Positions 35,602 through 56,422 of a stretch of DNA of 64,000 bases are shown here, piece after piece. Origin of the DNA: Bordetella genomosp. 1 (GTDB taxonomy: Bacteria; Pseudomonadota; Gammaproteobacteria; Burkholderiales; Burkholderiaceae_B); contig NZ_NEVL01000003.1 in assembly GCF_002261335.1 (NCBI RefSeq), positions 1,116,001-1,180,000 of the forward strand, in the 5' to 3' direction. A program made the translations under genes and the position numbers. The notes beneath the pieces were generated by a model that did not search any database, was not told where the DNA came from, and saw only the letters and a list, made by a program, of their open reading frames with translations. Every line of letters begins with the position of its first letter. Within the stretch, counting starts at the first letter, position 1.

Positions 35602-35609
35602 ACGCCGCT

Positions 35610-37507: not shown

Positions 37508-38018
37508 GCGTCTGCTCCCGTCCGCGCGGCGCCAGCGCGGCGTGCTGTCGGTGGAGGCGGCCTATGTGCTGCCGGTCATCATCGCGGCCGCCATGATGTT
37601 CATGGAACTCGCCAACATCGGCCTCACGATCAACGTGGGCGCCGGCGCGCTCGACCGCGCCATCCAGCAGTTCCGCCAGGACAGCATCAACGGCTCGCTG
37701 CAGGGCGACGCCATGGAAAGCCAGCTGCGCAAGCGCATGGTGGCCGCCTCGCACAACTACCTGGACGACACCGACATCGCCACCGTGGAGATCGAGCGTT
37801 TCACCTCGCTCGACGCGCTGGGCGGCGGCAACGCGGCCAATGAAGAGAACGCCCCGGCCGCGACCTCGACCCAGCCGGCCTGGCGCGTGTCGGTGGACAT
37901 CCGCAAGAACTTCATCACGCCGCTGCCGCGCCTGCTCGGCGTGGACAGCAGCGCGTTCCGCTATCGCTACGAGCAGGTGCTGGCCTATCTGCCGCAGGCC
38001 ACCGGAGCGCAGCAATGA
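37500..38018 (+). CDS. tadE: TadE-like pseudopilin
   Basis: A 172-residue protein with a TadE-type N-terminus: RRQRGVLSVEAAYVLPVIIAAAMMFMELANIG, where the glycine-leucine junction and following Glu resemble a prepilin site. It initiates at GTG within the end of tadD. The C-terminal part is periplasmic. Probable substrate of the CpaA peptidase. Confidence 0.85.
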   Translation: MAKRLLPSARRQRGVLSVEAAYVLPVIIAAAMMFMELANIGLTINVGAGALDRAIQQFRQDSINGSLQGDAMESQLRKRMVAASHNYLDDTDIATVEIERFTSLDALGGGNAANEENAPAATSTQPAWRVSVDIRKNFITPLPRLLGVDSSAFRYRYEQVLAYLPQATGAQQ

Positions 38019-38614: not shown

Positions 38615-40164
38615 AACACCGATTCCCCGTATTCCGACCCGAGCGCCAGCGCGGCGCCGCCGCCGTGGTCCTGCTGCTCCTGATCGGCGGCGTCATGACG
38701 CTGGCCGCCCTGTCCTCGGACATCGTGCGCATGGTGGCCGACTCCGGGCAGCTCAAGCGCGCCACGGATGCCGCGGCGCTGGCCGCATCGATGGCGCGCG
38801 CCGGCAACCGCGAGGCCGACATCCAGGCGATCGCCGAGCGCTACGTGGCCAGCAACCTGGGCATGGACCACGAACAGCTGCGGCGCGAGCTCGAGATCAC
38901 GACCGAGGCGATCCAGCGCGACTCGACCCCGGGCGCGCGCATCACCGCGCGCTACAAGGCCACGTCCATGCTCGGCAGCGTGCTGGCCCGCGCCGTGTCG
39001 GTGCGCTCGGCCGCCATCTCGCGCGACCTGACGCTGGAAGTGGCGCTCACGCTGCCCAACACGCTGAGCGAGGACGCCCGCAACCTGGCGGCCCTGCGCC
39101 GCCTCGGGAAGGCCTTCACCGCCGACCTGCTCAAGGACACCGAGACCACCTGGATCTCGCTGGTGCCGTACAGCCAGTCGGTCAATGTGTTCGACCCGGC
39201 GCAGCCGGGCCGGCTGCGCAACTGGGCCGCGGCCGGCGCGCTCAATCCGGTGGAGCTGACCTCGCTGTTCCGCTCGGGCTACGGCAGCCTGGCCGATCCG
39301 CGCATCCCCGACCGCCGCGCGCAGCTGCTGTGCATGTATCGCGGCCTGGCGCGCAACCAGAACTACTTCTGGGACCAGGCGCCCACCAGCCAGTTCAAGG
39401 TGTATTACCGCCATGACCTGCCCGACAACGGCAGCCCGGGCGCGCCGCCCATCAGCTGGGTCGGCCCCAACCCGGACTTCGGCCAGGCCACCGGCGTGAA
39501 CGACACGCGCTGGATGACCGCCGACCGCGGCTGCCCGAGCGCGGCCCTGCTGCCGCTCACCAACGACCAGGCCAAGCTCGACCGCCGCCTCGACGAGATG
39601 TCGACGCGCTTCAACGTGAACTACGCCATCGCCATGGGCTGGAGCGCGATGTCGCTCGCCCCGGCGTTTCGGGGCGGCTCGGGCTGGGCCCTGCCCGACG
39701 AGCTGCCCAAGGACTTCGACGAAGGCGCGGGCGACCACATCAAGGCGATCGTGATGCTGGTCAATTCCACCGGCCAGCGCTGGTTCGACTCAGACGCCTA
39801 CAACGGCGAGGTCGGCAGCCCCACCGATGGTTGCGACAGCAACGGCACGGCCTGCGACGACGCCCCGCTGATCACGCGCCGCTTCGCCAGCCTGTGCAAC
39901 AGCTTCCGCGCCCGCGGCCTGCGCTTCTACCTGATCGTGACCGGCAGCGACGAGGACAGCGACGAGGACGGCCAGATCCGCAGCGCCTCGGAATTCCGCA
40001 AGATCGCCGGCCCCGGCCTGGCGATGTGCGCCGTCAACGGTTCGGACCTCACCTGGTTGCCGGGCCGCGATTTCGTGGCCAGCGAAGGCCGCATCCAGGA
40101 CCGCCTCGACGAGATCGTCGAGGAACTGCGCCAGCTGGCCTCCATGACCACGCTGATCGAGTAA
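38611..40164 (+). CDS. tadG: TadG-like pilus-associated protein
   Basis: A 517-residue protein with the TadG/Tad-domain N-terminal anchor RQRGAAAVVLLLLIGGVMTLAALSSDIVRM followed by ATDAAALAASMARAG. The long periplasmic region (about 130-517) is Asp-rich and VWA-like in places (IVMLVNSTGQRWFDSDAYNG ... LRFYLIVTGSDEDSDEDG), similar to TadG proteins. It is the last recognisable tad gene. Only 27 bp separate it from the giant LEPR-XLL gene, so the two are likely on one transcript. Confidence 0.85.
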   Translation: MKHRFPVFRPERQRGAAAVVLLLLIGGVMTLAALSSDIVRMVADSGQLKRATDAAALAASMARAGNREADIQAIAERYVASNLGMDHEQLRRELEITTEAIQRDSTPGARITARYKATSMLGSVLARAVSVRSAAISRDLTLEVALTLPNTLSEDARNLAALRRLGKAFTADLLKDTETTWISLVPYSQSVNVFDPAQPGRLRNWAAAGALNPVELTSLFRSGYGSLADPRIPDRRAQLLCMYRGLARNQNYFWDQAPTSQFKVYYRHDLPDNGSPGAPPISWVGPNPDFGQATGVNDTRWMTADRGCPSAALLPLTNDQAKLDRRLDEMSTRFNVNYAIAMGWSAMSLAPAFRGGSGWALPDELPKDFDEGAGDHIKAIVMLVNSTGQRWFDSDAYNGEVGSPTDGCDSNGTACDDAPLITRRFASLCNSFRARGLRFYLIVTGSDEDSDEDGQIRSASEFRKIAGPGLAMCAVNGSDLTWLPGRDFVASEGRIQDRLDEIVEELRQLASMTTLIE

Positions 40165-40191: not shown

Positions 40192-43100
40192 ATGACTGCA
40201 CGCCGCTCCCCCTCGCTACGCCGCCAGGCCCTGGCCCTGGAACCCCGCTTCCTGCTCGACGCCGCCATCGCCGCCACCGCGGCCACGGTGGTCGACGCCA
40301 CCGACTCCAAGCCGGGTGCCAGCGCCGAAGGCGCCGCCGCCCACGTCGACATCAGCGAGTCCTCCACCACCCACCAGGTGGACCTGTTCAGCGGCGTCGC
40401 GGTCGCCACCGACAACGGCGGCGAGGCGCTCGACAAGCTGGTCGTGACCGTCGACCGCAGCGGCGCCAACCAGGCGCTCGTGATCGACGGCACCGAGATC
40501 AGCCTGACCGCCGGCAACGGCATCACGCAGGACAACAACTACGTCTACAGCGTGCAGGTCGGCGGCGACGGCACGACCACCATCACGCTCACCCTGGCCT
40601 CGTCGGACACGGCCAGCGGCCCGGCCGGCGCGGCCGCGCTGATCGACGGCATGGCCTACCGCAGCCTCGACAACAGCGTGGAAAGCGGCAAGGTCACGGT
40701 CACGCTCAAGAGCCTGAGCGACCTGGGCGGCGACACCACCGAGCTGGGCATCAGCGCCACGGTGGACGTGAACAACAGCATCAACGTGGCGCCGGTGCTG
40801 TCCGACGGCGGCCACCTCGATCCGCGCGAATCGCTGTCGCTGGGCGACCTGGGCAACGCCACCGAAGTCGTTTATTCCGCCGACGGCAAGTTTGCCTATG
40901 CGGCCGGCAATGACGGCATCCAGGTGTATTCGGTGGACAGCGCCGGGGCGCTGACCGCCGTGCAGACCTTCAAGCACGCCGACCTGAACACGGTCAGCCA
41001 CATGCTGATCAGCGCCGACGGCAAGTCGATCTACACCGTCTCGAGCAACAACGACAGCTACGTGGTGCAGCTGAACGTGGCCGCCGACGGCACCCTCAGC
41101 TACGCCGCGTCGGTGACGTCCAGCAACGGCACGATCAACGGCGGCATGGCCCTGACCGACGACGGCAAATACCTCTATGTGGGCACGCAGTACAACGGCG
41201 TGGTCATCTACGAGCGCGATGCCGCCACGGGCGACCTCAACCTGATCGGCCGCCTCAATGGCTCCAGCGGCCGCAGCGGCATGATCGCCACCTCGGGCGA
41301 CTACCTCTACATGCTCGAGATCGGCATGCCGCACACGCTGTTCGTGTACGAGCGCGGCGCCGACGGCCAGCTCAACCAGATCGACACGATCTCGGTGGCC
41401 GACGTGGGCAGCGGCTACAGCGCCGTCGACTACGCACTGACCACCTCGGCCGACGGCAAGACGCTCTACATCGGCAACCCGGTGAAGGGCGCGATCCACG
41501 TCTACCAGGTCGACGGCGGCGCGCTCAACCTGATCGGCAGCGAAACCCAGGCGGGCGTGCGCGGCATCGCGCTCAGCCCCGACGGCAACACCCTCTACGC
41601 AGCCTCGTCCGATGGGTCGGTGTCGGTCTACACCGTGGCGGCCAACGGCGCGCTCGCGCTGGCCGGCAAGATCGCGGGCAGCGGCAACGGCGCCGACATG
41701 GCCGTGTCGGCCGACGGCCACTCCATCCTGGTGGCGGGCGGCGGCGTGGTCCGCTACAGCGGCGTGCAGACGCTGGACCGCGCCGGCGAGCTGGCGTTCG
41801 CCGATGGCGTGAACTTCTCAGACAGCAACTTCGACGCGCTCAACGGCGGCGCGGGCAACTACAACGGCGCCAGCATCACGATCCAGGCCAGCGTGGCCGA
41901 CGGCAGCTTCGGCTTTGCCGCCGGTGACGGCCTGAGCCTGTCGGGCAACGACATCGTTCTCGACGGCGCGGTGATCGGCAGCTTCGTGCGCGCGGGCGAC
42001 ACGCTCACCATCACGTTCAGCGCCGACACCAGCAAGGCCGTGGCGAACCAGGTGCTGCACCAGGTCACCTACCGCAATGCCAACGCCAGCCGCGACGCCC
42101 TCATTCTGCTCGCGATCCGGGGCGGCGACGGCGCGCTCGACAGCAACACGATCGAGGTCGCGCTGCAGGCCAACAGCGCGCCGCAGCTCGACGACACGGG
42201 CTACGGCCTGGACGGCGGCCAGACCGAGACGGACTACAGCGTGACGCTGCCGGCGGGCCTGTTCAAGGATGTCGATGGCGACGCGCTGACGTGGACCGTC
42301 TCCGGCCTGCCGGCCGGCCTGAGCTTCGACCCCGCCACGCGCACCATCTCGGGCACCGTGGATGCCACCGGCACCTACAGCGTCAAGGTCACGGTGACGG
42401 ACATCCACGGCGGCACCGCGTCCACGACGCTGAGCCTGGTGATGGACCAGATCGACAACCGCGCGCCCACGGTCAACCCCGCCGCGCCCGCGGCCCTCGA
42501 CGCGGCCACCGCCGGCCAGACCTACACGGTCAAGCTGGACCCCGCGCTCTTCAGCGACGCCGACAGCCGCTACGGCGACACGCTGACCTGGCGCGTGGAC
42601 GACCTGCCGACCGGCCTGAGCTTCGACGCCGCGACGCTGACCATCACCGGCACCGCCTCCGCGCTCGGCAGCTTCCAGATCCGGATCACCGCCACCGACG
42701 CGAGCGGCGCCACGGCCACGCACACCGCCACGCTGCGCGTGATCTCGCAGGCCGAGGCCGGCAACACGGCGCCCACGGTGGGCGCCGACGCCGACAAGCT
42801 GGTGTACGGCAGCGACGGCACGCTTTCGGGCTACAACTACTACGTCAACAGCATCACCACCTCGGCCGACGGCAGCCTGGTGATCATCGCCGGCAGCACC
42901 GGCGTGAGCGCAGTGGGCGGCGCGAGCAGCCAGGGCGACAACTTCCTCAGCATCTACCAGCGCGACAGCAAGACCGGCGAGCTGAAGCTGCTGCAGACCT
43001 GGCGCCAGGGCACGGCCGACGACGGCAACGCGGCCAACGGCATCGAGGTCGACGGCCTCGGCGGCATCACCTCGGTGACGCTGTCCAAGGACGGCAAGTT

Positions 43101-46100
43101 CGTCTACGTGGCGGGCTACGGCGCCGAGGGCAGCGCCAGCAAATACGCGGTGTCGATCTTCTCGGTGAATGCCGACGGCACCCTGGCCAGCGTGGGCAAG
43201 ACCGCCTACGTGGACCAGAAGATCGTCGAAATCGCGCTGTCGAGCGATGGCGAACAACTGATCGTGCTGTCGACCAACACGCTGTACTCCTACACGGTGG
43301 GCGACGACGGCACGCTGGTGCAGAAGCAGGCGCTGGTGCCGCTGTTCGACAAGGGCTTCAACTCGGTGACGCGCGACCTGGACATCGACGCGAACGGCAC
43401 GGTGTACGCGATGAGCAATGGCCGCATGGCCATCTACACCTACGACAGCGCCACCAACATGCTGACCTTCCGCGGCCTGCTGCAGAACAGCGGCGGCGTG
43501 GTGTTCCATGAGTACGCGGCCGACGGCACGTTCGTGAAGTCCACCACCATCGCGAGCTCGGGCGCGTTCAGCACCGCCTACGCGCTGGCCGCCTCGGGCG
43601 ACGGCAACTTCTACATCACCACCTACAGCAACTTCGCGGTGATGGCGTTCCACTATGACGCCGCCACCAACAGCGTGACGTTCACCCAGCAGCTGAGCTT
43701 CGCCAACCCGAACTACCCGACCAGCGTCGAGACCTCCGCCGATGGCAGCACGCTGTACGTGGGCTTCGGCTTCTCGGGCACGCTGAACGCCTACCGCATC
43801 GGCGACGACGGCCAGCTCACGCTGGTGCAGAACATCGCCACCGGTGTGAACCGGGTCTATCGCATCCTGGCGACCGAAACCGGCGAGCTCTACGTCGGCA
43901 ACTTCGTCAACGGCGGCGGCACCGGGCTCGGCCTGGCCTCGCCCACCGGCGAAGTACGCGGCAGCTACCTCGAAGGCGCCACCATCCGCCCGGCCGACGG
44001 CTTCACGCTGGCCGATACCGAACTCGATGCGCGCAACGGCGGCAACGGCAACTACCAGGACGCCACGATCACCGTGGCGCGCGCCGGCGGCGCCAACGGC
44101 GACGACAGCTTCGGCTTCGCCGACGGCAACGGCGTCACGCTGGTCGACGGCAAGATCTACCTGAACGGCAGCGCCATCGCCAGCGTCGACGACAGCGGCA
44201 ACGCGCTGTCCATCGTCTTCACCGGCGAGACCAGCAGCGCGGTCGCCACGGCCGTGCTGCGCCAGATCACCTACACCAACCGCAACGGCGCACCCGGCGA
44301 CAGCATCAAGCTCTCGCTGGCGGTCAAGGACGAGTACACCGCCACCACGCTCACCCTGGCGCTGGCCGTGACCGAGGTCAACGACGCGCCCACTGCCATC
44401 GCCACGCCCAGGGACGGCGCGCATTCGCCGGGCGACGCGGCCACCGATCTGTTCGATGACGTGGAGATCTCCCCGGTCGAGGCCGGCCAGACCATCAGCG
44501 CCATCACCCTCACCGTCGGCGGTCTGCGCGACGGCGCGAGCGAATCGCTGCTGATCGACGGCGAACAGGTGGCGCTCGTGGCCGGCAGCGGCACCACGGC
44601 CGGCGGCTACGGCTATGTGATCACGGTGAGCGGCAGCACCGCCACCGTCACGCTCACCCACGGCACCGGCATGAACGGCGCGGCCGCGTCGGCGCTGGTC
44701 GATGGCCTCGGCTACGCCAACAGCAATCCCGATGCCACCGCCGGCGAACGCACCATCACGCTGAGCGCGATCAGGGACAGCGGCGGCACCGCCAATGGCG
44801 GCGACGACACGGCCACGCCGGACCTCACCGCCCGCATCACGGTGCAGGCCGAGGCGCCCACGCTGGGCGCCGACACCGGCTCGCTCACGTTCGAGGAAAT
44901 CATCAACGCCATCGCCGACGACGGCTTCACCAATCTGTACGAAGGCATCCAGGGCGTGGCGGTGTCGGGCGACTACGTCTACGTGGTGCGCACCGCCAGC
45001 GTCTGGGACAGCTCGACCATCAGCGACGTGGAAGTGAGCAGCCTGTATGTGTTGCAACGCGGCGCCGACGGCAAGCTCACGCTGGTCGAGTCGTTCGAGA
45101 GCAAGAACGTGGCCGCGCTCGGCGGCGCCGCCGGCGTGCAGGTCTCAGCCGATGGCAACAGCGTGTTCGTGGTCGGCAACAACGGCGTGGTGGTGTTCGA
45201 CCGCGAGGCGGGCGGCGCACTGGCGCTGGCCGGCACGCTCGGCGCCGAGCTGATCGCCGAACACGGCCTGATCCGCGACGTGCAATCCGGCCCGAACGGC
45301 ACGCTGTACGTCACGGCGGGCGACAGCCTGCTGGTCTACAGCCGCGGCCAGGACGGCAGCCTGAGCGTGGCGCAGACGCTGACCGACGCCGGCACCACCG
45401 GCATGCAACTCGACGGCGCCGGCCCGATCTCGCTGTCGCCGGATGGCCGCTTTGTGTTCGTCGGCACCTCGGGCGGCGCCACGCTGGCCAGCGTGTTCCG
45501 CGTCGAGGCCGATGGCTCGCTGAGCTTCCTGATGGCCGCGCAGGGCGAGTCGCCCGCCGCCGATCCGATGTACTTCACCCAGTCGCTCACGCTCTCACCC
45601 GACGGCACCACGCTCTACGCCATCGACAACGACGGCAGCGACTACCGCCTCTACACCCTGACCATCGGCGCCGACGGCACCCTCACCGCACAGGCCGACA
45701 CCGTGCTCGACGGCGAGGCGAATGCGCTGGTGGTGTCGCAGGACGGCGCGCTGCTGATCGTGGTGGGCCCCGACCAGATTTCGCTCTACACCCGTGGCGC
45801 GGACGGCGTGCCGACCGCGGCCGGCACGCTCACCAGCCTGGGCGGCAAGGACATCGGCGAACTGCGCGGCGCCACCCTGAGCGCGGACAGCAAGCAGCTG
45901 TACCTGTCGGGCACGGTCGACTGGAACGATGGCCTGCTGGTGCTCAACCTGAGCCCCGCGTCCTCGACCTACACCGAGGGCGGCGACGCCGTGGCCCTGC
46001 TGCCCGGCGGCAATCTGTCGGATCCGCAGCTCGACGCGCTCGACAACGGCTCGGGCGACTACCAGGGCGCCAGCATCGTGGTGGAGCGCGACGGCGGCGC

Positions 46101-49100
46101 CAATGCCGACGACACCTACACCCTGGTGGCCGGCGACGGCTACACGCTCGACACGGCCAACGGCCGGATCCTGCTCGATGGCACCGCCATCGCCAGCTTC
46201 ACCCAGGCCGGTGGCAAGCTGACCGTGGTGTTCACCGCCACGGTGAGCCAGGCCGAGGCGCAGCAGGTGCTGCGCCGCATCGCCTACGAGAACGGCAGCA
46301 GCGACCCGACCCGCGACGGCAGCCGGGCCCGCTTCGCCGTCACGCTCAACGACGGCGACGGCCACAGCGCCACCATGAACGCCGACGTGGACCTGATCGG
46401 CGTGAACGACCCGCCCGTCATCGACACCACGCCGCTCGCGCCCACCTATCCGGCAGAGGGCGAGCCCGTGAAGCTGTTCGACGGCACCACGATCGACACG
46501 GTGGAGGCCGGCCAGAACGTGTGGCAGGTGATCGTCACGGTCACGCCCGCCGGCAGCCAGGACATCCTGGGCGCCGACGGCGGCCGGATCCCGCTCGGCA
46601 GCGCCACCAGCGGCGTGCAACGCACGGCGACCGGCCTGGAGTACAGCGTCCAGATCGCCAACGGCGTGACCACCGTGGTGCTGTACCTGAACAACTCGCC
46701 CGAACGCGCCGCGCAGGTGATCGACAGCCTGACCTACTCGCACACCGGAGACAGCGGCAGCGGCTCGGTCAGCATCGGCGTGAACGTGCGCGAGAACGCC
46801 GACAGCAACGCGCTGTCGGCCCACACCGGCACCGCGGTGGTGACCCTGGCCGGCGCCAGCGCCGCCAATACCGCGCCCGTGCTGGGCGGCGGCACGACGG
46901 CGGGCTACACCGAACAGGCCGATCCCACCGCCATCGCCCCCGGCGCCACCGTGGCCGACGCCCAGATGGACGGCTTCAACAACGGCCTGGGCAACTACAA
47001 CGGCAGCACGCTGACCGTGGCGCTCGGCGCCGGCGCGAGCGCGGCCGACAGCCTGGGCTTTGCCGACGGCAACGGCCTCACCCGGGTCGGCGACCAGCTG
47101 CTGAAGGACGGCAAGCCGATCGGCCGTTTCAGCGTGGCCGACGGCACGCTCACGATCCAGTTCACCGACGAGGCCGGCGCGATCCCGACCCAGGCCGACG
47201 TGCAGAACGCGCTGCGCCAGGTGACCTATGCCAACGGCAGCGACGTGCCGGCCGAGCGCGTGGCGGTGCGCGTCACGCTGTCCGACCAGCGCGGCCTGGA
47301 ATCCGCCGCGATGGCGTTCGACATCGACATCACCGCGGTCAATGACCTGCCGGTGGTCGAGGCCGACCCGGTGCTGTCGCTCGGCGAACTGGCCGCGGTG
47401 CAGCACCTGACCGACCTGGCCGGCATGTCGGCGCTGACCGCCTCCGCCGCCTCGGCCGACGGCCTCACCGTGTACGTGGCCGACGGCAACGGCGCGATCG
47501 CGCTGTTCTCGCGCGACGCCGGCAGCGGCGAACTGACGCTGGTGCGCGTGCTCTCGGGCACCAGCGGCCTGGACGGCGTCAAGGCCCTGCAGCTGTCGGC
47601 CGACGGCACCAGCCTGTATGCGCTGCACGAGAACGGCAACGCCATCGTGTGGTTCAGCGTGGACGGCGACGGCGGCCTGACCCGCGCCGGCGCGATCAGC
47701 AGCGACTACGCGGTGGACGGCGGCAATCTGTTCGACATGCGCGACATCGCCCTGTCGGCCGACGGCAAGAATCTCTACCTCACCAACGCCTACAACGTCG
47801 TCATCCTGGCGCGCGACGGCGGCTCCGGCGCGCTGAGCTACGTCGGCGCGATCGAGGGCGGCATGTGGAGCGCCCCGTATCTGTGGGCACCGACCGAGGT
47901 GGTGACGCGCGGCGACCTGGTGTTCGTCGTGACCAATACCTCGTCTGGCTCCTCGCTGATCGTGTATCAGCGCGATGCGGACGGCGCCCTGACCCTGCTC
48001 GGCAACGCCAGCAACAACGGCACCGACGCGGCGGGCCAGCCGGTGTCGCTCGACGGCCTGGAGCAACTGGCCGTGAGTGCCGACGGCCGCACGATCTTCG
48101 TGGCCAACGGCGCGCAGATCGACGCGTTCGCACTCGATCCCGCCACCGGCGCCCTCACCCACAAGGGGGTGTTCGCGAGCAACCTCGCCATCACCGACCT
48201 GGCGTTGACGGCCGACGGCCGCGCGCTGTTCGCCACGCTGGCCGACGGCAGCGTCAACTATTACGCCACCGCCAACGGCGCGCTGGTCGGCAGCCACGGC
48301 GGCATGCCGGGCGCCGGTCAGGTGGTGTTGCTGCCCGACGGTGGCCTCGTCGTGATCGGCGACGGCGTGGACGTGCTCACGGCACCGCCCGGGACGGCCC
48401 CGGTGGCGGTCATCGGCGGCGACCCCGTCGCGGTGGCCCCGGCCGTGAAGCTCAGCGACGCCGAACTCGACGCCGCCGCCGCTGGCGCCGGCAACTACCA
48501 AGGCGCGAGCGTTACATTCACCGGCAACGCGGGCGACAGCTTCTCGTTCCTGGTGGGCGACGGCTACACGCTGGGCAGCGACGGCATCACGATCCTGCTC
48601 GACGGCACGGCCATCGCCACGCTGGTTCAGACCGACGGTGCCGCCACCCTGGCGTTCACCGGCGCCGTCACCACGGCGCAGGCCAACGCGCTGGTGCACC
48701 GCGTGGGCTACTCGGCCGGCGGCGACACCGCGGGCACGCGCAGCGTCAGCGTGCGCATGAACGACGGCGCCGACGAGAGCGCGGCACACCTCATCGAGGT
48801 GATCGCGGCCGAGCCGAATCATGCGCCCGAGGTCGGCGCTGCCGACTACACGCCCGCGCCGGTCGCGCAAGGCCGGCCCTACGAGGTCGTGCTGCCCGAC
48901 ACGCTGTTCAGCGACCCGGACGGCGACACCCTGACCTGGCAGGTGAGCGGCCTGCCGCCGGGCCTGAGCTTCGACGCCGCCACCCGCACCATCTCCGGCA
49001 CCACCACGGCCGCGCTGGCCGATTACCCGGTGCAGGTAAAGGTGAGCGACCCGAGCGGCGCCACGGCCACGCGGACGCTCACGCTGGAAGTGGCCGAGGC

Positions 49101-50280
49101 GCCCAACACCGAGCCGGTCGACAGCGGCATCAGCCTCGCGCCGGGCCAGCCCGAAGTGGGCGCGCCGTACCGCTACACGATCCCGGCCGGCCTCTTCACC
49201 GATGCCGACGGCGACACGTTGACGTGGACGGTGACCGGCCTGCCCGAGGGCCTGAGCTTCGACGCCGCCACCCGCACCATCTCCGGTGTCGCCACCGAGG
49301 CCGGCCAGTACGTGCTGACGATCGCCGCCAGCGACCCCGCCGGCGCGCAGGTTTCGCGCAGCCTGGGGCTCGACGTGGTGGTCGCGGCCAGCCCCCCCGC
49401 GCCGCAGCCGGCCGGCGATGCACCGCCGCCCCTGCCGCAGGTCCAGGCCTGGAACGTGCCGGACGACACCGCGCGCGACCCGGCCGAAGACCCTGCGCTC
49501 GCGGCCAGCGTGGCGCGCCCGATCGATGCGCCCGCAACAGATGCGGCCGGCATGGGCGGTGCCATCGCGCCGTTCGGCACGCCGGCAGGCGGCTCGGCCG
49601 TGCTGCTCGATGGCCTGCTGCGCAGTTCGCTGGAACGCGACGACCGCTGGACGCGTGGCCTGAACGGCGTGGAAACCGCCGACGGCAAGCCGACCCGTCT
49701 GGTGGCGCTCGCCAGCCCCGACGCGCCCGAACTGGCCGGCCCCGGCCGGCCGGTGACGGCGGCCTGGCACTACGACCGCGACAACAATCGCCAGGTCGTG
49801 ACCCTGCCGGCGGGCCTGGTGCGCAGCAGCAGCGCGATCGCCGCGCTCGAGCTGCGCATGGCCGATGGCGGCGCCCTGCCGGCGGGCGTGCGGCTCGACG
49901 CCGCGCGCGGCCTGATCACTGCCCCCGGCCTGAACGGCGGCCAGCCGCTGTCGCTGCAGCTGCTGGTGCGCACCGTCGACGGCCAGCGCCTGGCGGTGCC
50001 CATCCTCATCACGGGCGAACGGCAGGCCGCGGCCGCGCCGGCCGCCCCCCACGCTGCGCACGCCGCTGCGCACGCCGCCGCGCACGAGGGCGACCTCGCG
50101 GCCGCCAGCAAGCTGGCGCTCAGCGTGCAGCTGCGCCAGAGCGCGGCGCAGGACATCCTGGCCCAGGCGCAGCAACTGCTGGCCGCCCTGGGCGAGGACC
50201 CGGCGCCCGCGCTGCCGGCCGCCGTCAACGAACCACACGCCGGCCACCGCCAGGCGTCTTCCCTCTCCGTACAAAGCTGA
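40192..50280 (+). CDS. Giant LEPR-XLL multi-domain surface protein (3362 aa)
   Basis: A very large probable secreted or surface protein. The N-terminus has no Sec leader but carries the LEPR-XLL motif (LALEPRFLLDAAIAA, residues 14-28). Four beta-propeller blocks of lactonase/YVTN style lie at about 221-525, 880-1260, 1563-1920 and 2385-2730, recognisable by repeated SADGKxxYVxxxxxGxVxVY strands. Five copies of a module with NYxGASI...GDGxTL...LDGTAIAxF...LRxIxYxN lie after each propeller (about 537, 1265, 1937, 2238, 2747). Paired putative-Ig domains (DGDTLTWxVxGLPxGLSFDAATRTISG) occur at about 663-859 and 2877-3067. The C-terminal 295 residues are Ala/Pro-rich. There are no RTX nonapeptides and no autotransporter barrel. 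An exporter-like cassette follows directly; an adhesin role is inferred. Confidence 0.88.
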   Translation: MTARRSPSLRRQALALEPRFLLDAAIAATAATVVDATDSKPGASAEGAAAHVDISESSTTHQVDLFSGVAVATDNGGEALDKLVVTVDRSGANQALVIDGTEISLTAGNGITQDNNYVYSVQVGGDGTTTITLTLASSDTASGPAGAAALIDGMAYRSLDNSVESGKVTVTLKSLSDLGGDTTELGISATVDVNNSINVAPVLSDGGHLDPRESLSLGDLGNATEVVYSADGKFAYAAGNDGIQVYSVDSAGALTAVQTFKHADLNTVSHMLISADGKSIYTVSSNNDSYVVQLNVAADGTLSYAASVTSSNGTINGGMALTDDGKYLYVGTQYNGVVIYERDAATGDLNLIGRLNGSSGRSGMIATSGDYLYMLEIGMPHTLFVYERGADGQLNQIDTISVADVGSGYSAVDYALTTSADGKTLYIGNPVKGAIHVYQVDGGALNLIGSETQAGVRGIALSPDGNTLYAASSDGSVSVYTVAANGALALAGKIAGSGNGADMAVSADGHSILVAGGGVVRYSGVQTLDRAGELAFADGVNFSDSNFDALNGGAGNYNGASITIQASVADGSFGFAAGDGLSLSGNDIVLDGAVIGSFVRAGDTLTITFSADTSKAVANQVLHQVTYRNANASRDALILLAIRGGDGALDSNTIEVALQANSAPQLDDTGYGLDGGQTETDYSVTLPAGLFKDVDGDALTWTVSGLPAGLSFDPATRTISGTVDATGTYSVKVTVTDIHGGTASTTLSLVMDQIDNRAPTVNPAAPAALDAATAGQTYTVKLDPALFSDADSRYGDTLTWRVDDLPTGLSFDAATLTITGTASALGSFQIRITATDASGATATHTATLRVISQAEAGNTAPTVGADADKLVYGSDGTLSGYNYYVNSITTSADGSLVIIAGSTGVSAVGGASSQGDNFLSIYQRDSKTGELKLLQTWRQGTADDGNAANGIEVDGLGGITSVTLSKDGKFVYVAGYGAEGSASKYAVSIFSVNADGTLASVGKTAYVDQKIVEIALSSDGEQLIVLSTNTLYSYTVGDDGTLVQKQALVPLFDKGFNSVTRDLDIDANGTVYAMSNGRMAIYTYDSATNMLTFRGLLQNSGGVVFHEYAADGTFVKSTTIASSGAFSTAYALAASGDGNFYITTYSNFAVMAFHYDAATNSVTFTQQLSFANPNYPTSVETSADGSTLYVGFGFSGTLNAYRIGDDGQLTLVQNIATGVNRVYRILATETGELYVGNFVNGGGTGLGLASPTGEVRGSYLEGATIRPADGFTLADTELDARNGGNGNYQDATITVARAGGANGDDSFGFADGNGVTLVDGKIYLNGSAIASVDDSGNALSIVFTGETSSAVATAVLRQITYTNRNGAPGDSIKLSLAVKDEYTATTLTLALAVTEVNDAPTAIATPRDGAHSPGDAATDLFDDVEISPVEAGQTISAITLTVGGLRDGASESLLIDGEQVALVAGSGTTAGGYGYVITVSGSTATVTLTHGTGMNGAAASALVDGLGYANSNPDATAGERTITLSAIRDSGGTANGGDDTATPDLTARITVQAEAPTLGADTGSLTFEEIINAIADDGFTNLYEGIQGVAVSGDYVYVVRTASVWDSSTISDVEVSSLYVLQRGADGKLTLVESFESKNVAALGGAAGVQVSADGNSVFVVGNNGVVVFDREAGGALALAGTLGAELIAEHGLIRDVQSGPNGTLYVTAGDSLLVYSRGQDGSLSVAQTLTDAGTTGMQLDGAGPISLSPDGRFVFVGTSGGATLASVFRVEADGSLSFLMAAQGESPAADPMYFTQSLTLSPDGTTLYAIDNDGSDYRLYTLTIGADGTLTAQADTVLDGEANALVVSQDGALLIVVGPDQISLYTRGADGVPTAAGTLTSLGGKDIGELRGATLSADSKQLYLSGTVDWNDGLLVLNLSPASSTYTEGGDAVALLPGGNLSDPQLDALDNGSGDYQGASIVVERDGGANADDTYTLVAGDGYTLDTANGRILLDGTAIASFTQAGGKLTVVFTATVSQAEAQQVLRRIAYENGSSDPTRDGSRARFAVTLNDGDGHSATMNADVDLIGVNDPPVIDTTPLAPTYPAEGEPVKLFDGTTIDTVEAGQNVWQVIVTVTPAGSQDILGADGGRIPLGSATSGVQRTATGLEYSVQIANGVTTVVLYLNNSPERAAQVIDSLTYSHTGDSGSGSVSIGVNVRENADSNALSAHTGTAVVTLAGASAANTAPVLGGGTTAGYTEQADPTAIAPGATVADAQMDGFNNGLGNYNGSTLTVALGAGASAADSLGFADGNGLTRVGDQLLKDGKPIGRFSVADGTLTIQFTDEAGAIPTQADVQNALRQVTYANGSDVPAERVAVRVTLSDQRGLESAAMAFDIDITAVNDLPVVEADPVLSLGELAAVQHLTDLAGMSALTASAASADGLTVYVADGNGAIALFSRDAGSGELTLVRVLSGTSGLDGVKALQLSADGTSLYALHENGNAIVWFSVDGDGGLTRAGAISSDYAVDGGNLFDMRDIALSADGKNLYLTNAYNVVILARDGGSGALSYVGAIEGGMWSAPYLWAPTEVVTRGDLVFVVTNTSSGSSLIVYQRDADGALTLLGNASNNGTDAAGQPVSLDGLEQLAVSADGRTIFVANGAQIDAFALDPATGALTHKGVFASNLAITDLALTADGRALFATLADGSVNYYATANGALVGSHGGMPGAGQVVLLPDGGLVVIGDGVDVLTAPPGTAPVAVIGGDPVAVAPAVKLSDAELDAAAAGAGNYQGASVTFTGNAGDSFSFLVGDGYTLGSDGITILLDGTAIATLVQTDGAATLAFTGAVTTAQANALVHRVGYSAGGDTAGTRSVSVRMNDGADESAAHLIEVIAAEPNHAPEVGAADYTPAPVAQGRPYEVVLPDTLFSDPDGDTLTWQVSGLPPGLSFDAATRTISGTTTAALADYPVQVKVSDPSGATATRTLTLEVAEAPNTEPVDSGISLAPGQPEVGAPYRYTIPAGLFTDADGDTLTWTVTGLPEGLSFDAATRTISGVATEAGQYVLTIAASDPAGAQVSRSLGLDVVVAASPPAPQPAGDAPPPLPQVQAWNVPDDTARDPAEDPALAASVARPIDAPATDAAGMGGAIAPFGTPAGGSAVLLDGLLRSSLERDDRWTRGLNGVETADGKPTRLVALASPDAPELAGPGRPVTAAWHYDRDNNRQVVTLPAGLVRSSSAIAALELRMADGGALPAGVRLDAARGLITAPGLNGGQPLSLQLLVRTVDGQRLAVPILITGERQAAAAPAAPHAAHAAAHAAAHEGDLAAASKLALSVQLRQSAAQDILAQAQQLLAALGEDPAPALPAAVNEPHAGHRQASSLSVQS

Positions 50281-52028
50281 TGTTCGACATGACCTCCTCC
50301 GATCTTTCCGTGAAGCCCTCGACGCGCCGTCCGCTGCGCCTGGCCCTGACCGTGGTCGCCGCCGCCGTGCTGGCGGGTTGCACGGTCGCGCCGCCGGAGC
50401 GGCTCAGCACGCAGGACCTGCTGCAACAGGACCTTGCCGACCGCGGCAGCATGTTTGCCGCCCAGGAGCCCGTGACCGGCCCCATCACGCTGGACGAAGC
50501 CATCGCCCGCGCCGTGAAGTACAACCTGCAGCAGCGTCTGGCCCTGATGGAACGCGCGCTCGAAGACAATCTGGTGGACGTGCAGAAGCAAGGCATGCTG
50601 CCCAAGCTCACGGCGCGCGCCGGCCTGCGCGGCCGCAACAACGACTACGGCTCGTCGAGCGAGTCGCTCGATACCGGCACCCAGTCGCTGGTGCCGTCGA
50701 CCAGCCAGGAGCGCGACGGCAAGACCGCCGACCTGCAACTGAGCTGGAACGTGCTGGACTTCGGCCTGAGCTACTTCGGCGCCAAGGCCCAGGGCAACAA
50801 GGCGCTGGCCGCGGAAGAACGGCGCCGCCGCGTGGTGGCCGACATCATCCGCCAGACCCGCACCGCCTACTGGAACGCCGTGACGGCCGAGCGCCTGAAG
50901 GGCCAGGTGAGCAGCACGCTGGCCGAGGCGCGCCAGACGCTCGAATACGCCCGCCAGACCGAGCAGAAGCGCCTGGTCGCGCCGATCGTGGCGCTGCGCT
51001 ACCAGCGCGACCTGCTCAACATGGTGCGCCAGACCGAGGCGCTGGACAACGAGCTGGCGCAGGCCAAAGCCAAGCTGGCCACCCTGATGAACCTGCCGCC
51101 CGCCACCGACTTCACGCTGGCCGCGCCCGACGCCGGCGGCATGGCCGCGCCCAACCTGGCCTACGAGCTGACCGACCTGGAAGCGCTGGCGATGGTGCAC
51201 CGCCCCGAGCTGCGCGAAGAGACCTACCTCGCGCGCAACGCCGTGCTCGAGACCCGCATGTCGCTGCTGCGCCTGTTCCCGAACGCCTCGCTGTTCGGCG
51301 GCCTGAACTACGACAGCAACAAGTACCTGGTCAACAACGAATGGGCCGACGCCGGCGTGCAGGTCAGCTGGAATCTGCTGAGCGTGCTGTCGCTGCCGTC
51401 GATCAACCGCGCCGGCGAGGCGCGCAAGGAAGTGGCGCAGCTGCGCCGCCAGGCCCTGCGCATGAGCGTGCTGAGCCAGGTCCACATCGCCTGGCTCGAG
51501 CGCCAGCGTGCCGAGGCCGCGTTCCAGCGCGCCAGCGAGCTGTCGCGCCTGCAGGACGCGATCCAGGTGCAGACCGAGAACGCGGCCCGCAGCAACGCCG
51601 AAACGCACCTGGAGCTGGTGCGCGCCAAGGTCGAGACGCTGCTGGCCACCCGCGCGCGCGACCTGAGCTACGCGGAGCTGGTGAACGCGCAGAACACCGT
51701 GTACCAGGCGGCCGGCATCGACCCGCTGCCCGAGAAGATCACCGACGACACGCTCGCCAGCCTGGCGCGCGACATCGCCGAGACCAACCGCAAGATCGAG
51801 CAGGGCCACATGGAGGTGCCGCGCCTGCTCGCCGAGGCGGGCGCCGGCGCCGGGCTCGATCCGGCTGCGGCGACCGCGCCGGTGACCGTGGCGGTGGCCG
51901 AACCCGCGCCCGCCCCCAAGCCGGCGGCGCTACGCAAGGTGAGTGGCAGCCCCTGGAGCAGCCTGGGCTCCTTGTCGGGCACCGACACGCCGGCGCCGGC
52001 CATCCAATCCCTTCCGGTCACGCGTTGA
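50280..52028 (+). CDS. TolC-family outer-membrane lipoprotein
   Basis: A 582-residue outer-membrane efflux protein. The lipobox LAGC in VVAAAVLAGCTVAPPE indicates lipidation. The long alpha-helical hairpins of the TolC fold are evident (VVADIIRQTRTAYWNAVTAERLKG ... EARQTLEYARQTEQKRLVAP ... LELVRAKVETLLATRARDLSYAELVNAQN). Its ATG overlaps the last base of the giant gene's stop codon (TGATG), so translation is probably coupled. An Ala/Pro-rich C-terminal tail is unusual. It is the likely outer-membrane channel for export of the giant protein. Confidence 0.9.
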   Translation: MFDMTSSDLSVKPSTRRPLRLALTVVAAAVLAGCTVAPPERLSTQDLLQQDLADRGSMFAAQEPVTGPITLDEAIARAVKYNLQQRLALMERALEDNLVDVQKQGMLPKLTARAGLRGRNNDYGSSSESLDTGTQSLVPSTSQERDGKTADLQLSWNVLDFGLSYFGAKAQGNKALAAEERRRRVVADIIRQTRTAYWNAVTAERLKGQVSSTLAEARQTLEYARQTEQKRLVAPIVALRYQRDLLNMVRQTEALDNELAQAKAKLATLMNLPPATDFTLAAPDAGGMAAPNLAYELTDLEALAMVHRPELREETYLARNAVLETRMSLLRLFPNASLFGGLNYDSNKYLVNNEWADAGVQVSWNLLSVLSLPSINRAGEARKEVAQLRRQALRMSVLSQVHIAWLERQRAEAAFQRASELSRLQDAIQVQTENAARSNAETHLELVRAKVETLLATRARDLSYAELVNAQNTVYQAAGIDPLPEKITDDTLASLARDIAETNRKIEQGHMEVPRLLAEAGAGAGLDPAAATAPVTVAVAEPAPAPKPAALRKVSGSPWSSLGSLSGTDTPAPAIQSLPVTR

Positions 52029-52039
52029 GTCGCCGCATC

Positions 52040-52810
52040 ATGTTCCAGCGCAAGACCCGTGGCGCCCTGCTGCTCGCCATCCTGGCGGGCACGCCCGCCG
52101 CCACCCAGGCCCAGGGCCTGCCGCCGTCCGCTCCCGAAGCGGGCGGGACCCGCGCCCAGCTCGTCGCGAGCCAGCGCGCCGTGATCTCGAGCGAACTGGC
52201 CGGCAAGATCGCCAGCGTGCCGTTTCGCGACGGCCAGTCGTTCAAGAAGGGCGACACGCTGATCGCGTACGACTGCGCGCTCAACCGCGCCCGCCTCGAA
52301 CGCGCCGTCCAGGCCGAGGGCGCGGCCGTGAAGAAGCTGGCCGTGGCCGACCAGCTCGACAAGCTGTCGTCGATCAGCCGCTCGGACGTGGAGCAGGCGC
52401 GCGCCGCCGTTGCGGTGGCCCGCGCCGAATCCGGCGTGGAACGCGTGATGGTGAATCGCTGCACCGTCATCGCGCCCTATGCCGGCCGCGTCGGCGAGGC
52501 CTTCGTGCGACCGCTCGAGAGCGTGGGCGAAGGCAAGGAGCTGCTGAGCATCTACGACGACAGCGCCTTCGAGCTCGAGACCATCGTGCCCTCGCGCTGG
52601 CTGGCCTGGCTCAAGACCGGCTATCCGATGCACATCACCGTGGACGAGACCGGCCTGAGCTACGAGGCCGTGGTGGCCCGCATCGCGGGCGCCGTGGACC
52701 CGGTGAGCCAGTCGGTCAAGGTCATCGGCCGGCTCGACGGCAAGACCGGCGCGGGGCTGCTGCCCGGCATGAGCGGCAGCGTGCGCATCGACCCGCCCGC
52801 GCAGCCCTGA
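52040..52810 (+). CDS. Soluble periplasmic adaptor (HlyD/RND-MFP type)
   Basis: A 256-residue adaptor with a Sec signal peptide (ALLLAILAGTPAATQAQ). A lipoyl half-motif (VISSELAGKIASVPFRDGQSFKKGDTLIAYDC), a short hairpin and the second half (VIAPYAGRVGEAFVRPLESVGEGKELLSIYD) are followed by a beta-barrel. It is shorter than typical RND adaptors (around 370). No inner-membrane RND pump is encoded nearby. It follows the TolC-like gene by 11 bp. Confidence 0.87.
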   Translation: MFQRKTRGALLLAILAGTPAATQAQGLPPSAPEAGGTRAQLVASQRAVISSELAGKIASVPFRDGQSFKKGDTLIAYDCALNRARLERAVQAEGAAVKKLAVADQLDKLSSISRSDVEQARAAVAVARAESGVERVMVNRCTVIAPYAGRVGEAFVRPLESVGEGKELLSIYDDSAFELETIVPSRWLAWLKTGYPMHITVDETGLSYEAVVARIAGAVDPVSQSVKVIGRLDGKTGAGLLPGMSGSVRIDPPAQP

Positions 52811-52829
52811 ACCGCGGCGCCGCACCACG

Positions 52830-54200
52830 ATGAGTACCGCAACCCGCGAGACCCTGCTCGCCACGCTGCTGCAACTGGAGCAGCGCGCCCGCGCCTGCAC
52901 CTCGCCGCAGGATCTGGCCTTTCTGATGGTCAACGACAGCCACGCGCTGGCACCCTATCGCCAGGCCGCGCTCTGGCGCGCGGGCGACGGCGGCGACGGC
53001 ACGATCGAGGCGCTATCCGGTCTGGCCGTGCCCGAGCGCAACGCGCCGTTCAACGTCTGGCTGTCCGCCCTGCTGGCGCGCCGGCTGCGCGATGGCGCGG
53101 GTCTTGCGGCCGGGCCGCTGCAACCGGCGGCCGAGGATGCGGCCATGTGGGTCGAGCACCTGCCGCCGCACGCATGGCTGCTGCCGCTGGCGCTGGGCGA
53201 CGCGCAACGGCCGGACGCCGCGTTGCTGCTGGCGCGCGACACGCCCTGGGACAAGCGCGAAACCACGCTGCTCGGCCTGCTGGCCGACGCCTACGCCCAT
53301 GCCTGGCGCGCGCTGCGACCCGCGACCCGGCAGCGGCGCGGGCCGGCGCAATGGTGGTCGGGCCTGCGCCATGGCGCGCACCGGCGCCGCTGGTGGCTGG
53401 GGCTCGCGCTGGCCGTCACGGCCCTGCTGTTCGTGCCGGTGCGGCAATCGGTGCTGGCGCCGGCCGAGATCGTGGCGCGCGCGCCGATGGCCGTGCGCGC
53501 GCCGCTGGCCGGCGTGGTCGACAGCATCGCCGTCACGCCCAACCAGGCGGTCCAGCAGGGCCGGTTGCTCGCGACCCTGGATGCGCGCGAGGTGAACGGC
53601 AAGCTCGAAAGCGCGCGCCAGGCGCTGGCCGTGGCCGACGCCGAGCTGCGCCAGACCCAGCAGCAGGCGCTCTACGACGAACGCAGCAAGGCCGCGCTGG
53701 CGCTGGCACGCGGCAAGCGCGCCCAGGCGCAGAACGACGTGGCGTACTACCAGGAGGCGCTTGCCCGCACGCAGCTGCGCGCCGAGCGCGACGGCATCGC
53801 GCTGTTCGATGACGTGTCCGACTGGATCGGCCGGCCGGTGGCGCTCGGCGAGCGCATCATGATGGTGGCCGATCCCAAGGACGCCGAGCTCGAGGTGCAG
53901 TTGCCGGTGGCCGACGCGATCAGGCTGCCCGAGGCCGCCGAATTACGGCTGTTCCTGAACGCCGCCCCCACCTCGCCGCTGCCCGCCTCGCTGCTGCGCG
54001 TGGGCTACCGCGCCGCCCCCACGCCCGACGGCACGCTGGCCTATCGGGTGCGCGCGCAACTGCATCCCGCCGATGGGCAGGAGACGCTGCCGCGCATCGG
54101 GCTCAAGGGCACCGCCAAGCTGTACGGCGAGCGCACGCCGCTGTTTGCCTACCTGCTGCGCCGGCCGCTGGCCAGCCTGCGCGTGTGGCTCGGGCTATGA
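52830..54200 (+). CDS. Inner-membrane HlyD-type adaptor with GAF-like cytosolic domain
   Basis: A 456-residue protein. Residues 1-165 are cytosolic and GAF-like (LLQLEQRARACTSPQDLAFLMVNDSHALAPYRQAALW ... LLPLALGDAQRPDAALLLARD). A basic stretch and one transmembrane helix (WWLGLALAVTALLFVPV, about 190-206) lead to a periplasmic lipoyl/hairpin adaptor (APMAVRAPLAGVVDSIAVTPNQAVQQGRLLATLDAREV). A cytosolic sensory-type head on a HlyD protein is unusual. The stop overlaps the next start (ATGA), so its product is likely made in step with the M50 protein. Confidence 0.82.
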   Translation: MSTATRETLLATLLQLEQRARACTSPQDLAFLMVNDSHALAPYRQAALWRAGDGGDGTIEALSGLAVPERNAPFNVWLSALLARRLRDGAGLAAGPLQPAAEDAAMWVEHLPPHAWLLPLALGDAQRPDAALLLARDTPWDKRETTLLGLLADAYAHAWRALRPATRQRRGPAQWWSGLRHGAHRRRWWLGLALAVTALLFVPVRQSVLAPAEIVARAPMAVRAPLAGVVDSIAVTPNQAVQQGRLLATLDAREVNGKLESARQALAVADAELRQTQQQALYDERSKAALALARGKRAQAQNDVAYYQEALARTQLRAERDGIALFDDVSDWIGRPVALGERIMMVADPKDAELEVQLPVADAIRLPEAAELRLFLNAAPTSPLPASLLRVGYRAAPTPDGTLAYRVRAQLHPADGQETLPRIGLKGTAKLYGERTPLFAYLLRRPLASLRVWLGL

Positions 54201-56422
54201 CGGCCACGTCCGCCACGCCCGGCGCGGCACTGCCGGCGCCCACCTCCCGCGCGCCGGACGCGCCCGCGCAGGCGCTCGCGCCTTTGCGCGAGGAGCTGCT
54301 GCTGCACGAAGCGCCGCGCAACCACGACGGCTCGCCCGCCTGGACACTGGAGGATCCCGGCCGCGCGCAGTTCTACCAGATCGGCTGGGCCGAGGCCGAG
54401 ATGCTGGCGCGCTGGCACCTCGCCGACGCCGCGGCGATCGCCGCCGCGATCGGCGCCGACACGCCGCTGCACCTGCACGCGGACGACGTCACCGACTTCG
54501 CCCAGTTCCTGCAGCACAACAGCCTGCTGCAGGCGCGCGGCCCGCAGGCCATCGCGCGCTATCGCCGCGAGGCGCAGGCGCGGGCGCGCGGCCACTGGCT
54601 CAAGGGCCTGATCCATCACTATCTGTTTTTCCGCATCCCGCTCGTGCGCCCCGACGCGTTCCTGAGCCGCACCCTGCCCTGGGTGCGGCGCCATTTCTAC
54701 GCGCGCGGCTTCCTGCTGCTGACGCTGGCCGCGGGCCTGCTGGGCCTGTTTCTCGCGGCCCGCCAATGGGATGAGTTCCTCCACACCTTCCTGCACTTCT
54801 TCACGCTGGAAGGCGCGCTGACGGCGGGGCTGGCGCTGGGCGTGACCAAGATCCTGCACGAGCTGGGCCACGCCTACACCGCCAAGTATCACGGCTGCCG
54901 CGTCGCCACCATGGGCGTGGCCTTCATGGTGATGTGGCCGGTGCTCTACACCGACACCTCGGGCGCCTGGCGCCTGAAGAGCCGGCGCCGCCGCATGTCG
55001 ATCGGCGCCGCCGGCATGATGGCCGAGACCGTGCTCGCGGCCTGGGCCACGCTGGCCTGGAGCTTCCTGCCCGACGGCATGCTGCGCAGCGCCGCCTTCA
55101 CGCTCGCCACCACCACCTGGCTGCTGACCCTGGCCGTCAACCTCAACCCGCTGATGCGCTTCGACGGCTACTTCCTGCTGTCGGATGCGCTCAACGTGCC
55201 GAACCTGCAGAACCGCGCCTTCGCGCTCGCGCGCTGGCGCCTGCGCGAGTGGCTGTTCGACCTGGGCGATGCGCGGCCGGAGGTGTTCGCGCCCTGGCGC
55301 GAACGGGCCCTGCTGGTCTACGCCTTCAGCGTCTGGGTCTATCGCTTCTTCCTGTTCCTGGGTATCGCCGTGCTGGTCTACCACATGGCCTTCAAGCTAT
55401 TGGGCATTCTCTTGTTCGCCATCGAAATCGTGGCCTTCGTGCTGCGCCCCATCTATACCGAACTCGTGGCCTGGCGCGAACGCCTGTCGAGCCAGCGCAA
55501 GACCGGCTGGAACCGGCGCAGCCGCCTCACCTCCCTGATCGTCCTGCTGGGCCTGATCGCGGCGGTCGTGCCGTGGCGCAGCCGGGTCGAGGCGCCGGCG
55601 CTGCTGCGCGCGGCCGAGCAGGCCCGCCTGGTGGCCCCGGCCGGCGCGCGCATCGAACGCATCGGCGTGCGGGCAGGACAGCCGGTGGCCGCGGGCGAGG
55701 CGCTCTACGTGCTGCGCGCGCCCGATCTCGAATACGAGCGCGACGCGCTGGCCCAGCGCATCGGCGTGCTGCAATGGCAGCAGAGCTTTCACGCGATGCG
55801 CCAGGACAGCGGCGCCGCGGTGCCGGTGGCGCAGCGCGAGCTGCAGGCCGCGCGCGAACGCCTGGAGGTGCTCACGCGCCAGCTCGAGCAGCTCACGATC
55901 CGCGCGCCGTTCGCCGGCACGATGGCCGAGCTGGCCGAGCCGCTCGCGGCCGGCGAGTGGGTGGGCGAAGGCGAATGGCTGGGCACGCTGGTCGCGCCGC
56001 AACGGCTGGTGGTGGAGGGCTACGCCGCCGAGGAAGACGTGCGGCGGCTGCGCGCCGGCGACGCCGCGCGCTTCCTGCCCGAAGATCCGGGGCTGGCCGC
56101 CGTACCGCTCACCGTGACGGCCATCAACGCCACCGCCACGCGCCGCCTGAGCGCGGCGCCGGAGCTGGCCTCGGTGCATGGCGGCCATCTGGCCGCGGTG
56201 CGCGCGCCGGCCGCAAGCCATCGCGCCGACGCCGACGCGCAGGACCTGGCGCCCGAGCAGGCGGTGTATCGTGTGATGCTGGATCCCGCGCCCGAAGCGG
56301 CGGCGCTGCCACGCCTGCAGGTGCTGCGCGGCACGGCCGTGATCGAGGGCGCGAATGAAAGCCTGCTGATGCGCGCCTGGCGCCGCGCGGCCGCCGTGCT
56401 GCTGCGCGAATCGGGTTTCTGA
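54197..56422 (+). CDS. M50 site-2-type metalloprotease fused to HlyD-type adaptor
   Basis: A 741-residue polytopic protein. An N-terminal cytosolic domain (about 30-150; AWTLEDPGRAQFYQIGWAEAEML, weakly PqqD/winged-helix-like) is followed by M50 peptidase helices: HELGH at 221-225 in KILHELGHAYTAKYHG, and the second metal motif in NPLMRFDGYFLLSD (Asp323). After further membrane helices (to about 460) comes a periplasmic lipoyl/hairpin adaptor (AEQARLVAPAGARIERIGVRAGQPVAAGEALYVL ... LTIRAPFAGTMAEL). The combined fold suggests a membrane unit that both handles or cleaves a substrate and docks to TolC. The catalytic residues look intact. Confidence 0.87.
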   Translation: MTATSATPGAALPAPTSRAPDAPAQALAPLREELLLHEAPRNHDGSPAWTLEDPGRAQFYQIGWAEAEMLARWHLADAAAIAAAIGADTPLHLHADDVTDFAQFLQHNSLLQARGPQAIARYRREAQARARGHWLKGLIHHYLFFRIPLVRPDAFLSRTLPWVRRHFYARGFLLLTLAAGLLGLFLAARQWDEFLHTFLHFFTLEGALTAGLALGVTKILHELGHAYTAKYHGCRVATMGVAFMVMWPVLYTDTSGAWRLKSRRRRMSIGAAGMMAETVLAAWATLAWSFLPDGMLRSAAFTLATTTWLLTLAVNLNPLMRFDGYFLLSDALNVPNLQNRAFALARWRLREWLFDLGDARPEVFAPWRERALLVYAFSVWVYRFFLFLGIAVLVYHMAFKLLGILLFAIEIVAFVLRPIYTELVAWRERLSSQRKTGWNRRSRLTSLIVLLGLIAAVVPWRSRVEAPALLRAAEQARLVAPAGARIERIGVRAGQPVAAGEALYVLRAPDLEYERDALAQRIGVLQWQQSFHAMRQDSGAAVPVAQRELQAARERLEVLTRQLEQLTIRAPFAGTMAELAEPLAAGEWVGEGEWLGTLVAPQRLVVEGYAAEEDVRRLRAGDAARFLPEDPGLAAVPLTVTAINATATRRLSAAPELASVHGGHLAAVRAPAASHRADADAQDLAPEQAVYRVMLDPAPEAAALPRLQVLRGTAVIEGANESLLMRAWRRAAAVLLRESGF

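Follow-up and report, generated by a model that had tools for sequence, protein, structure and literature searches.

Probable dedicated export and processing machinery beside a giant LEPR-XLL protein of Bordetella genomosp. 1

Giant adhesins such as LapA are exported by type I secretion. In the type I secretion of the giant adhesin SiiE (PMC8277102), a giant repeat protein is served by an HlyD-type adaptor and a TolC-type outer membrane factor, and components of the same three kinds are found in a five-gene cassette of Bordetella genomosp. 1. The cassette lies in a window of 64,000 nucleotides, the whole stretch of DNA analysed here (assembly GCF_002261335.1, contig NZ_NEVL01000003.1, positions 1,116,001 to 1,180,000), and begins with the gene of a giant protein bearing an N-terminal LEPR-XLL motif. 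A Vibrio LEPR-XLL protein of about 8000 residues has RTX domains (PMC10868602); no match to an RTX family was obtained for the Bordetella giant. The cassette probably represents a machine dedicated to the export and processing of a single giant LEPR-XLL protein, which is adhesin-like and probably surface-bound. Its dedication to LEPR giants is strongly supported, export of the giant by the cassette is likely, and reading of the leader by a PqqD-like domain followed by clipping through an M50 protease is plausible.

The tight coupling of the five genes at 40192..56422, noted in the preliminary description, is real:

40192..50280, + strand: giant LEPR-XLL protein of 3362 residues, the presumed substrate, with lactonase-like seven-bladed beta-propeller stretches (four in Pfam) alongside Ig-like (He_PIG) domains
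50280..52028, + strand: TolC-type outer membrane lipoprotein of 582 residues (Pfam OEP, 8.3e-33; LAGC motif seen)
52040..52810, + strand: periplasmic HlyD/RND-type adaptor of 256 residues with a Sec-like leader (TIGR01730 over cut-off)
52830..54200, + strand: GAF-HlyD adaptor of 456 residues, with GAF domain (residues 1-167 approximately), hydrophobic segment (about 186-212) and adaptor part, the membrane sides being predicted
54197..56422, + strand: PqqD-M50-HlyD fusion of 741 residues

The adaptor and TolC families typical of type I systems are both present, HlyD_3 (Pfam) in three of the cassette proteins and OEP in one, and the GAF fold was recovered in the GAF-HlyD protein. No inner membrane pump of the RND, MFS or MacB type was found among the five proteins in Pfam and NCBIfam scans, and no ABC exporter is encoded within the cassette. 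Among the matches listed in a scan based on the M50 protein, the nearest named relative of the locus belongs to Bordetella ansorpii (84%).

The four genes downstream of the giant co-occur with LEPR-XLL giants in other genomes, so that the preliminary description, which had named missing conservation as its refutation, withstands this test. For the survey, 80 loci were taken by the M50 protein alone (the best 80 of at least 594 confirmed matches; loci and genomes are numbered L and G below). Of the 74 loci with at least 1.5 kb of upstream sequence, 72 have GAF-HlyD immediately before M50-HlyD. Where at least 4.8 kb were available (70 loci), the adaptor occurs in 57, TolC in 51 and both in 50, anywhere in the locus. 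In 43 of the 80 loci, TolC or GAF-HlyD comes immediately after an upstream frame of more than 900 residues; the giant lies downstream of the cassette in three Nitrospira loci (L093, L107, L117), and it is inserted between adaptor and GAF-HlyD in L074, L091 and L095, as well as in L076, where the GAF part is in frame with M50. Since the giant stays as partner while the gene order shifts, this arrangement speaks for a function.

The gene set is also carried by plasmids. M50-HlyD matched 54 plasmid records, including 18 of Escherichia, 13 of Azospirillum and 8 of Citrobacter, and four plasmid cassettes were inspected (E. coli, Kosakonia, Azospirillum and M. gryphiswaldense). On the E. coli and Kosakonia plasmids the giant begins with the LEPR motif. 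The E. coli plasmid (NZ_CP060066.1, IncHI1B; L120) harbors a complete cassette with a giant of 3668 residues, near lac and fec genes. On the Azospirillum brasilense plasmid p2 (L122, 1171-13715), a motif-bearing frame of 798 residues overlaps the next frame of 3383 residues by four bases, and the pair represents either one split giant or two substrates. Furthermore, a contig labelled viral (IMGVR_UViG_3300022658_000180; L119) encodes an M50-HlyD relative with 41% identity and may be host DNA.

The tie to LEPR-XLL can be expressed statistically. At E 1e-10, M50-HlyD was matched in 60 of 369 genomes of the class. The NCBI model NF012209 (LEPR-XLL) detected 35 of these 369 genomes at E 0.01, 31 of which contain M50-HlyD (Fisher p 3.4e-24, uncorrected for kinship); the other four are G076, G120, G213 and G237. 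A second model, A2, was built from giants chosen by an L-E-x-R pattern near M50 loci and comprises 20 of 22 stretches, without L117 and the second L086 frame, together with that of the window. Because its members were picked near M50 loci, the association of A2 itself is biased, and NF012209 serves as the independent test. At E 0.001, A2 matched 16 class genomes, 15 with M50-HlyD; the miss is G245, whose LEPR-type protein (L138) is found in a genome without M50-HlyD match at E 1e-10. For the union of both models, M50-HlyD is present in 40 of 45 genomes (p 5.7e-33, likewise uncorrected for kinship). Among 50 cassette genomes outside A2, an N-terminus matching A2 at E 0.01 was obtained in 48 (none for L051 and L110), and by coordinates alone a giant lies on the same strand, 0.4-8 kb from M50, in 25 of these 50 held-out genomes (29 under a looser rule).

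Both ends of the giant bear conserved motifs:

40234..40287, + strand: LEPR-XLL N-terminal motif ALEPRFLLDAA, candidate leader (NF012209 over cut-off; alignment A2)
50110..50190, + strand: C-terminal motif KLALSVQLRQSAAQDILAQAQQLLAAL, read by eye, candidate second signal or anchor

Near the N-terminus of the window giant, NF012209 scores 21.6 bits (cut-off 17). The L, E and R of the motif belonged to the selection pattern and their conservation was thus preselected; the following D is invariant in 21 alignment rows, though absent from that pattern. The LEPR stretch is not Sec-like: a 12-residue hydropathy of at least 2.0 is reached by one of 22 giant N-termini, compared with 40 of 46 TolC and 38 of 48 adaptor proteins. 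At the other end, a strict pattern is found in 15 of 43 giants and in 3 of 711 other windows. As this pattern had been picked by eye, a split test on held-out giants was performed, with related species on both sides of the split and the window giant outside it. The family motif learned from 17 giants, approximately K-P-x-L/F-S/T-x-Q-L, recurs C-terminally in 13 of the 21 giants held out and, at comparable score, nowhere else within the matching sequences. LEPR-type open frames reach 17,576 residues (Limnohabitans, L092) and 10,477 residues (G279). In L092 (genome G404, contig C2) the frame stands beside a cassette, with its LEPR match at 1130729-1130806.

The last gene of the cassette combines three parts in one membrane protein:

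54266..54544, + strand: PqqD/RRE-like N-terminal domain (residues 24-116; hhalign probability 94.8%, E 5.1e-8)
54857..54871, + strand: M50 zinc motif HELGH (residues 221-225)
55157..55171, + strand: second M50 motif RFDGY (residues 321-325), invariant in 73 of 73 sequences
55556..56368, + strand: adaptor part, MacA/MexA-like

Hallmarks of M50 (site-2) proteases are HExxH and a second metal ligand within NxxPxxxxDG. Both are present in M50-HlyD, with His221, Glu222, His225, Asn315, Pro318 and Asp323 invariant among 73 sequences, and the window protein matches Pfam M50 with 32.3 bits (cut-off 27.2). PqqD-like domains are of the kind that binds leader peptides. The PqqD assignment derives from the profile-profile comparison, which was accompanied by a negative control; two M50 relatives (G004 and G052) exceed the Pfam cut-off for PqqD and the window protein alone stays below it. 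Comparison of this domain with solved structures by sequence gave chance matches alone (E 0.38 or worse), and a structure search with the whole M50-HlyD model returned adaptor and biotinyl-type folds alone among the 50 matches listed, which neither shows nor excludes PqqD. No nucleotide-binding domain was matched in M50-HlyD by Pfam and NCBIfam scans. The preliminary description had let the M50 unit replace the inner membrane pump. Since the protease residues are invariant, no nucleotide-binding domain is matched and relatives stand beside a SecA-type ATPase, M50 looks like a recognition and clipping unit and was rejected as motor.

A possible course of export can be outlined. The PqqD-like domain would bind the LEPR leader and thereby capture the giant, in the way known for PqqD/RRE domains and the leaders of ribosomally synthesized and post-translationally modified peptides (RiPPs), and the M50 active site would clip the leader within the membrane. 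The adaptor parts of M50-HlyD and GAF-HlyD, together with the soluble adaptor, may form a conduit through the periplasm that leads to the TolC lipoprotein, and the GAF domain may act as a cytosolic on/off sensor. The polypeptide would be pushed by a motor encoded outside the cassette, with the window's branch turning either to the housekeeping SecA or to another energy source, and the C-terminal motif may serve to retain the giant, either within the conduit or at the surface.

The strongest candidate for this motor is of the SecA type, because M50 of a sister branch frequently stands next to a SecA-derived ATPase. Members of this branch, with M50-HlyD relatives about 25-33% identical, are accompanied by GAF-HlyD and often by the adaptor, and the giants beside these genes in L128, L132 and L134 start with an N-terminus of the LEPRLLLSAD, LEDRILFSAD or LEPRILLSAD type. 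A SecA-derived protein of about 650-730 residues occurs in 9 of 20 sister regions (L124, L125, L129, L130, L131, L132, L133, L135 and L142). Three of these proteins were scanned; all show the Pfam SecA_DEAD, preprotein-binding and P-loop matches as well as DEAD, GEGKT and TNMAGRGTD motifs, and none matches the wing/scaffold, the part of known SecA that contacts SecYEG. To judge from sequence, the accessory SecA of the sister branch is a shortened SecA lineage. By our own sorting, such a copy is present in 24 of 61 genomes searched, at no more than 2.5 kb from M50 in 20 of these. It was found in one of 15 genomes of type A, the window's type (G303, not adjacent), and is missing from 16 of the 39 genomes that are neither type A nor intermediate (six intermediate genomes left out).

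A tree was built for 46 M50 proteins; a branch with 100/100 support has all 24 rows labelled as type A on the same side. The nine SecA rows belong to another group of 15 (100/100) together with six rows lacking a recognised SecA nearby, two of which (G081 and G354) have a SecA copy elsewhere in the genome. As the tree is unrooted, SecA was either gained in the sister branch or lost in the window's branch. An intermediate variant with the order TolC, giant (LE[EQK]R-V/I-VLD) and M50-HlyD is seen in L136, L137 and L143 and forms its own tree branch. Taken further, though with some doubt, LEPR-XLL cassettes could constitute a separate secretion system for giants, made of a PqqD leader reader, an adaptor-fused intramembrane M50 protease, a second adaptor gated by GAF, and TolC. 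The ancestral motor of the system would have been a stripped-down SecA without wing/scaffold, acting on M50 and not on SecYEG, and lost in the window's branch, which would move its giants without a dedicated ATPase.

No pump was seen to recur beside the cassette across the loci surveyed. ABC motifs turned up in 7 of 80 loci when these were scanned roughly, and only the protein of L045, from Serratia, was recognised as an exporter; its gene is situated at a distance of about 2 kb, on the opposite strand. An RND-like pump is seen in L055 (read by eye). The ABC protein of 620 residues that follows M50 in L136 and L137 was rejected as pump, being ABC-F-like in Pfam (two ATPase stretches, ABC_tran_Xtn, no membrane domain). 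The preliminary description of an exporter cassette lacking any pump ATPase holds for the locus and fails for the genome. Its exporter reading is retained as a dedicated, conserved set tied to LEPR-XLL giants without recurrent pump, in which export is likely, whereas replacement of the pump by M50 is not supported.

Several observations weigh against a dedicated machine of this design. The window's genome encodes two type I exporters elsewhere, and an LssB- or PrtD-like exporter is present in 48 of 62 genomes whose M50-HlyD is of the window's type (LssB at E 1e-120 in 40, PrtD at E 1e-100 in 43). Regarding the motor, an accessory SecA was found in none of the 80 type A loci, and the window's genome (G000) has a single SecA match, of housekeeping length. 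Single-sequence similarity to PqqD is weak (Pfam 1 of 44, at 0.052; NCBIfam 3 of 44, best 0.0014), and 8 of the 21 held-out giants, including the nearest relative L040 (E 0.43), failed the C-terminal test. Five of the 45 LEPR genomes lack M50-HlyD and 20 of the 60 M50-HlyD genomes match neither LEPR model. Moreover, L108 and L118 lack GAF-HlyD at the position immediately before M50-HlyD, some cassettes (e.g. L054, L056, L084, L108, L109 and L115) showed no giant in their vicinity, and the neighbour on the M. gryphiswaldense plasmid has 492 residues without the motif.

Among other explanations, the best surviving one is export in two steps, in which the giant crosses the inner membrane by Sec (SecA/SecYEG) and is then taken over in the periplasm by the cassette, to be clipped and conveyed through TolC. 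The housekeeping SecA of the window's genome and the SecA relative of the sister branch are in line with such a route, as is the moderately hydrophobic stretch at the N-terminus of the window giant (best 12-residue hydropathy 1.79). However, LEPR N-termini are mostly too little hydrophobic and are charged (E and R by the selection pattern, D invariant without it), and the three accessory SecA proteins lack a match to the SecYEG-contacting part, which makes two-step export unlikely.

Even less probable is that the cassette is powered in trans by a classical type I ABC exporter whose gene lies elsewhere in the genome. The two exporters of the window's genome, the 48 genomes with at least one LssB- or PrtD-like match and the Serratia exporter would fit; however, with the best 15-18 candidates scored per genome, 14 of the 62 genomes have neither type at these thresholds, including 9 of the 12 genomes tested from the class and G224, which is complete in one contig, and in none of the 14 did HlyB exceed the cut-off (G412 has a full-length match below it). 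An ABC exporter is thus not a constant partner. Export of a small RiPP-like leader peptide by the four-gene set, with the giant as passenger or regulator, is very improbable: the M50 and PqqD combination resembles RiPP maturation (M50 part in the daptide metalloprotease model, 146.8 bits, cut-off 300), but the recurrent neighbour is a giant with conserved N-terminus in several gene orders, and no recurrent small gene was noticed in a survey covering frames of at least 100 residues.

Outside the cassette, a T2SSF-type gene (35013-36548, Pfam) and a TadG-like frame within 37840-40164 (by eye) lie just upstream and probably mark where a Flp/Tad pilus cluster ends. A gene of the haem oxygenase family (56534-57127; Pfam 7.6e-22) follows directly downstream.

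If the cassette exports giants, LEPR-XLL gains a role as leader, and a secretion route would emerge in which recognition of the leader, cutting within the membrane and passage through a TolC conduit are coupled; the sister branch would put SecA to a new use. No description of the cassette or of the exit of LEPR-XLL giants was found in the open PMC literature (preprints and most subscription papers were outside this scope), and export of very large proteins by the cassette may follow a route not yet described.

Compared with type I secretion of giant adhesins, the cassette has no ABC exporter, three adaptors instead of one and an M50 protease with a PqqD-like domain, and its substrate displays a conserved N-terminal motif and no RTX family match. 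Since the defining ABC exporter is absent, the cassette is not a type I system, though it resembles a tripartite exporter. With the tripartite efflux pumps MacAB-TolC, AcrAB-TolC and EmrAB-TolC it shares the adaptor fold and the TolC family, but not the inner membrane pump of RND, MFS or MacB type. Leader handling in RiPP systems (daptide, NF041824; YydH/LiaK, NF058609) likewise employs a PqqD-like domain and M50; in the cassette, both reside in one membrane protein and are fused to an HlyD adaptor, and the neighbour has thousands of residues in place of a short peptide. Accessory SecA systems such as SecA2 have a parallel in the extra SecA of the sister branch, which stands beside the cassette with DEAD, TNMAGRGTD and GEGKT motifs; in contrast to SecA2, this protein comprises about 660 residues, has no Pfam wing/scaffold match in the three copies scanned, is linked to M50-HlyD and is missing from the window's branch. 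Within the literature searched, no known kind combines these parts.

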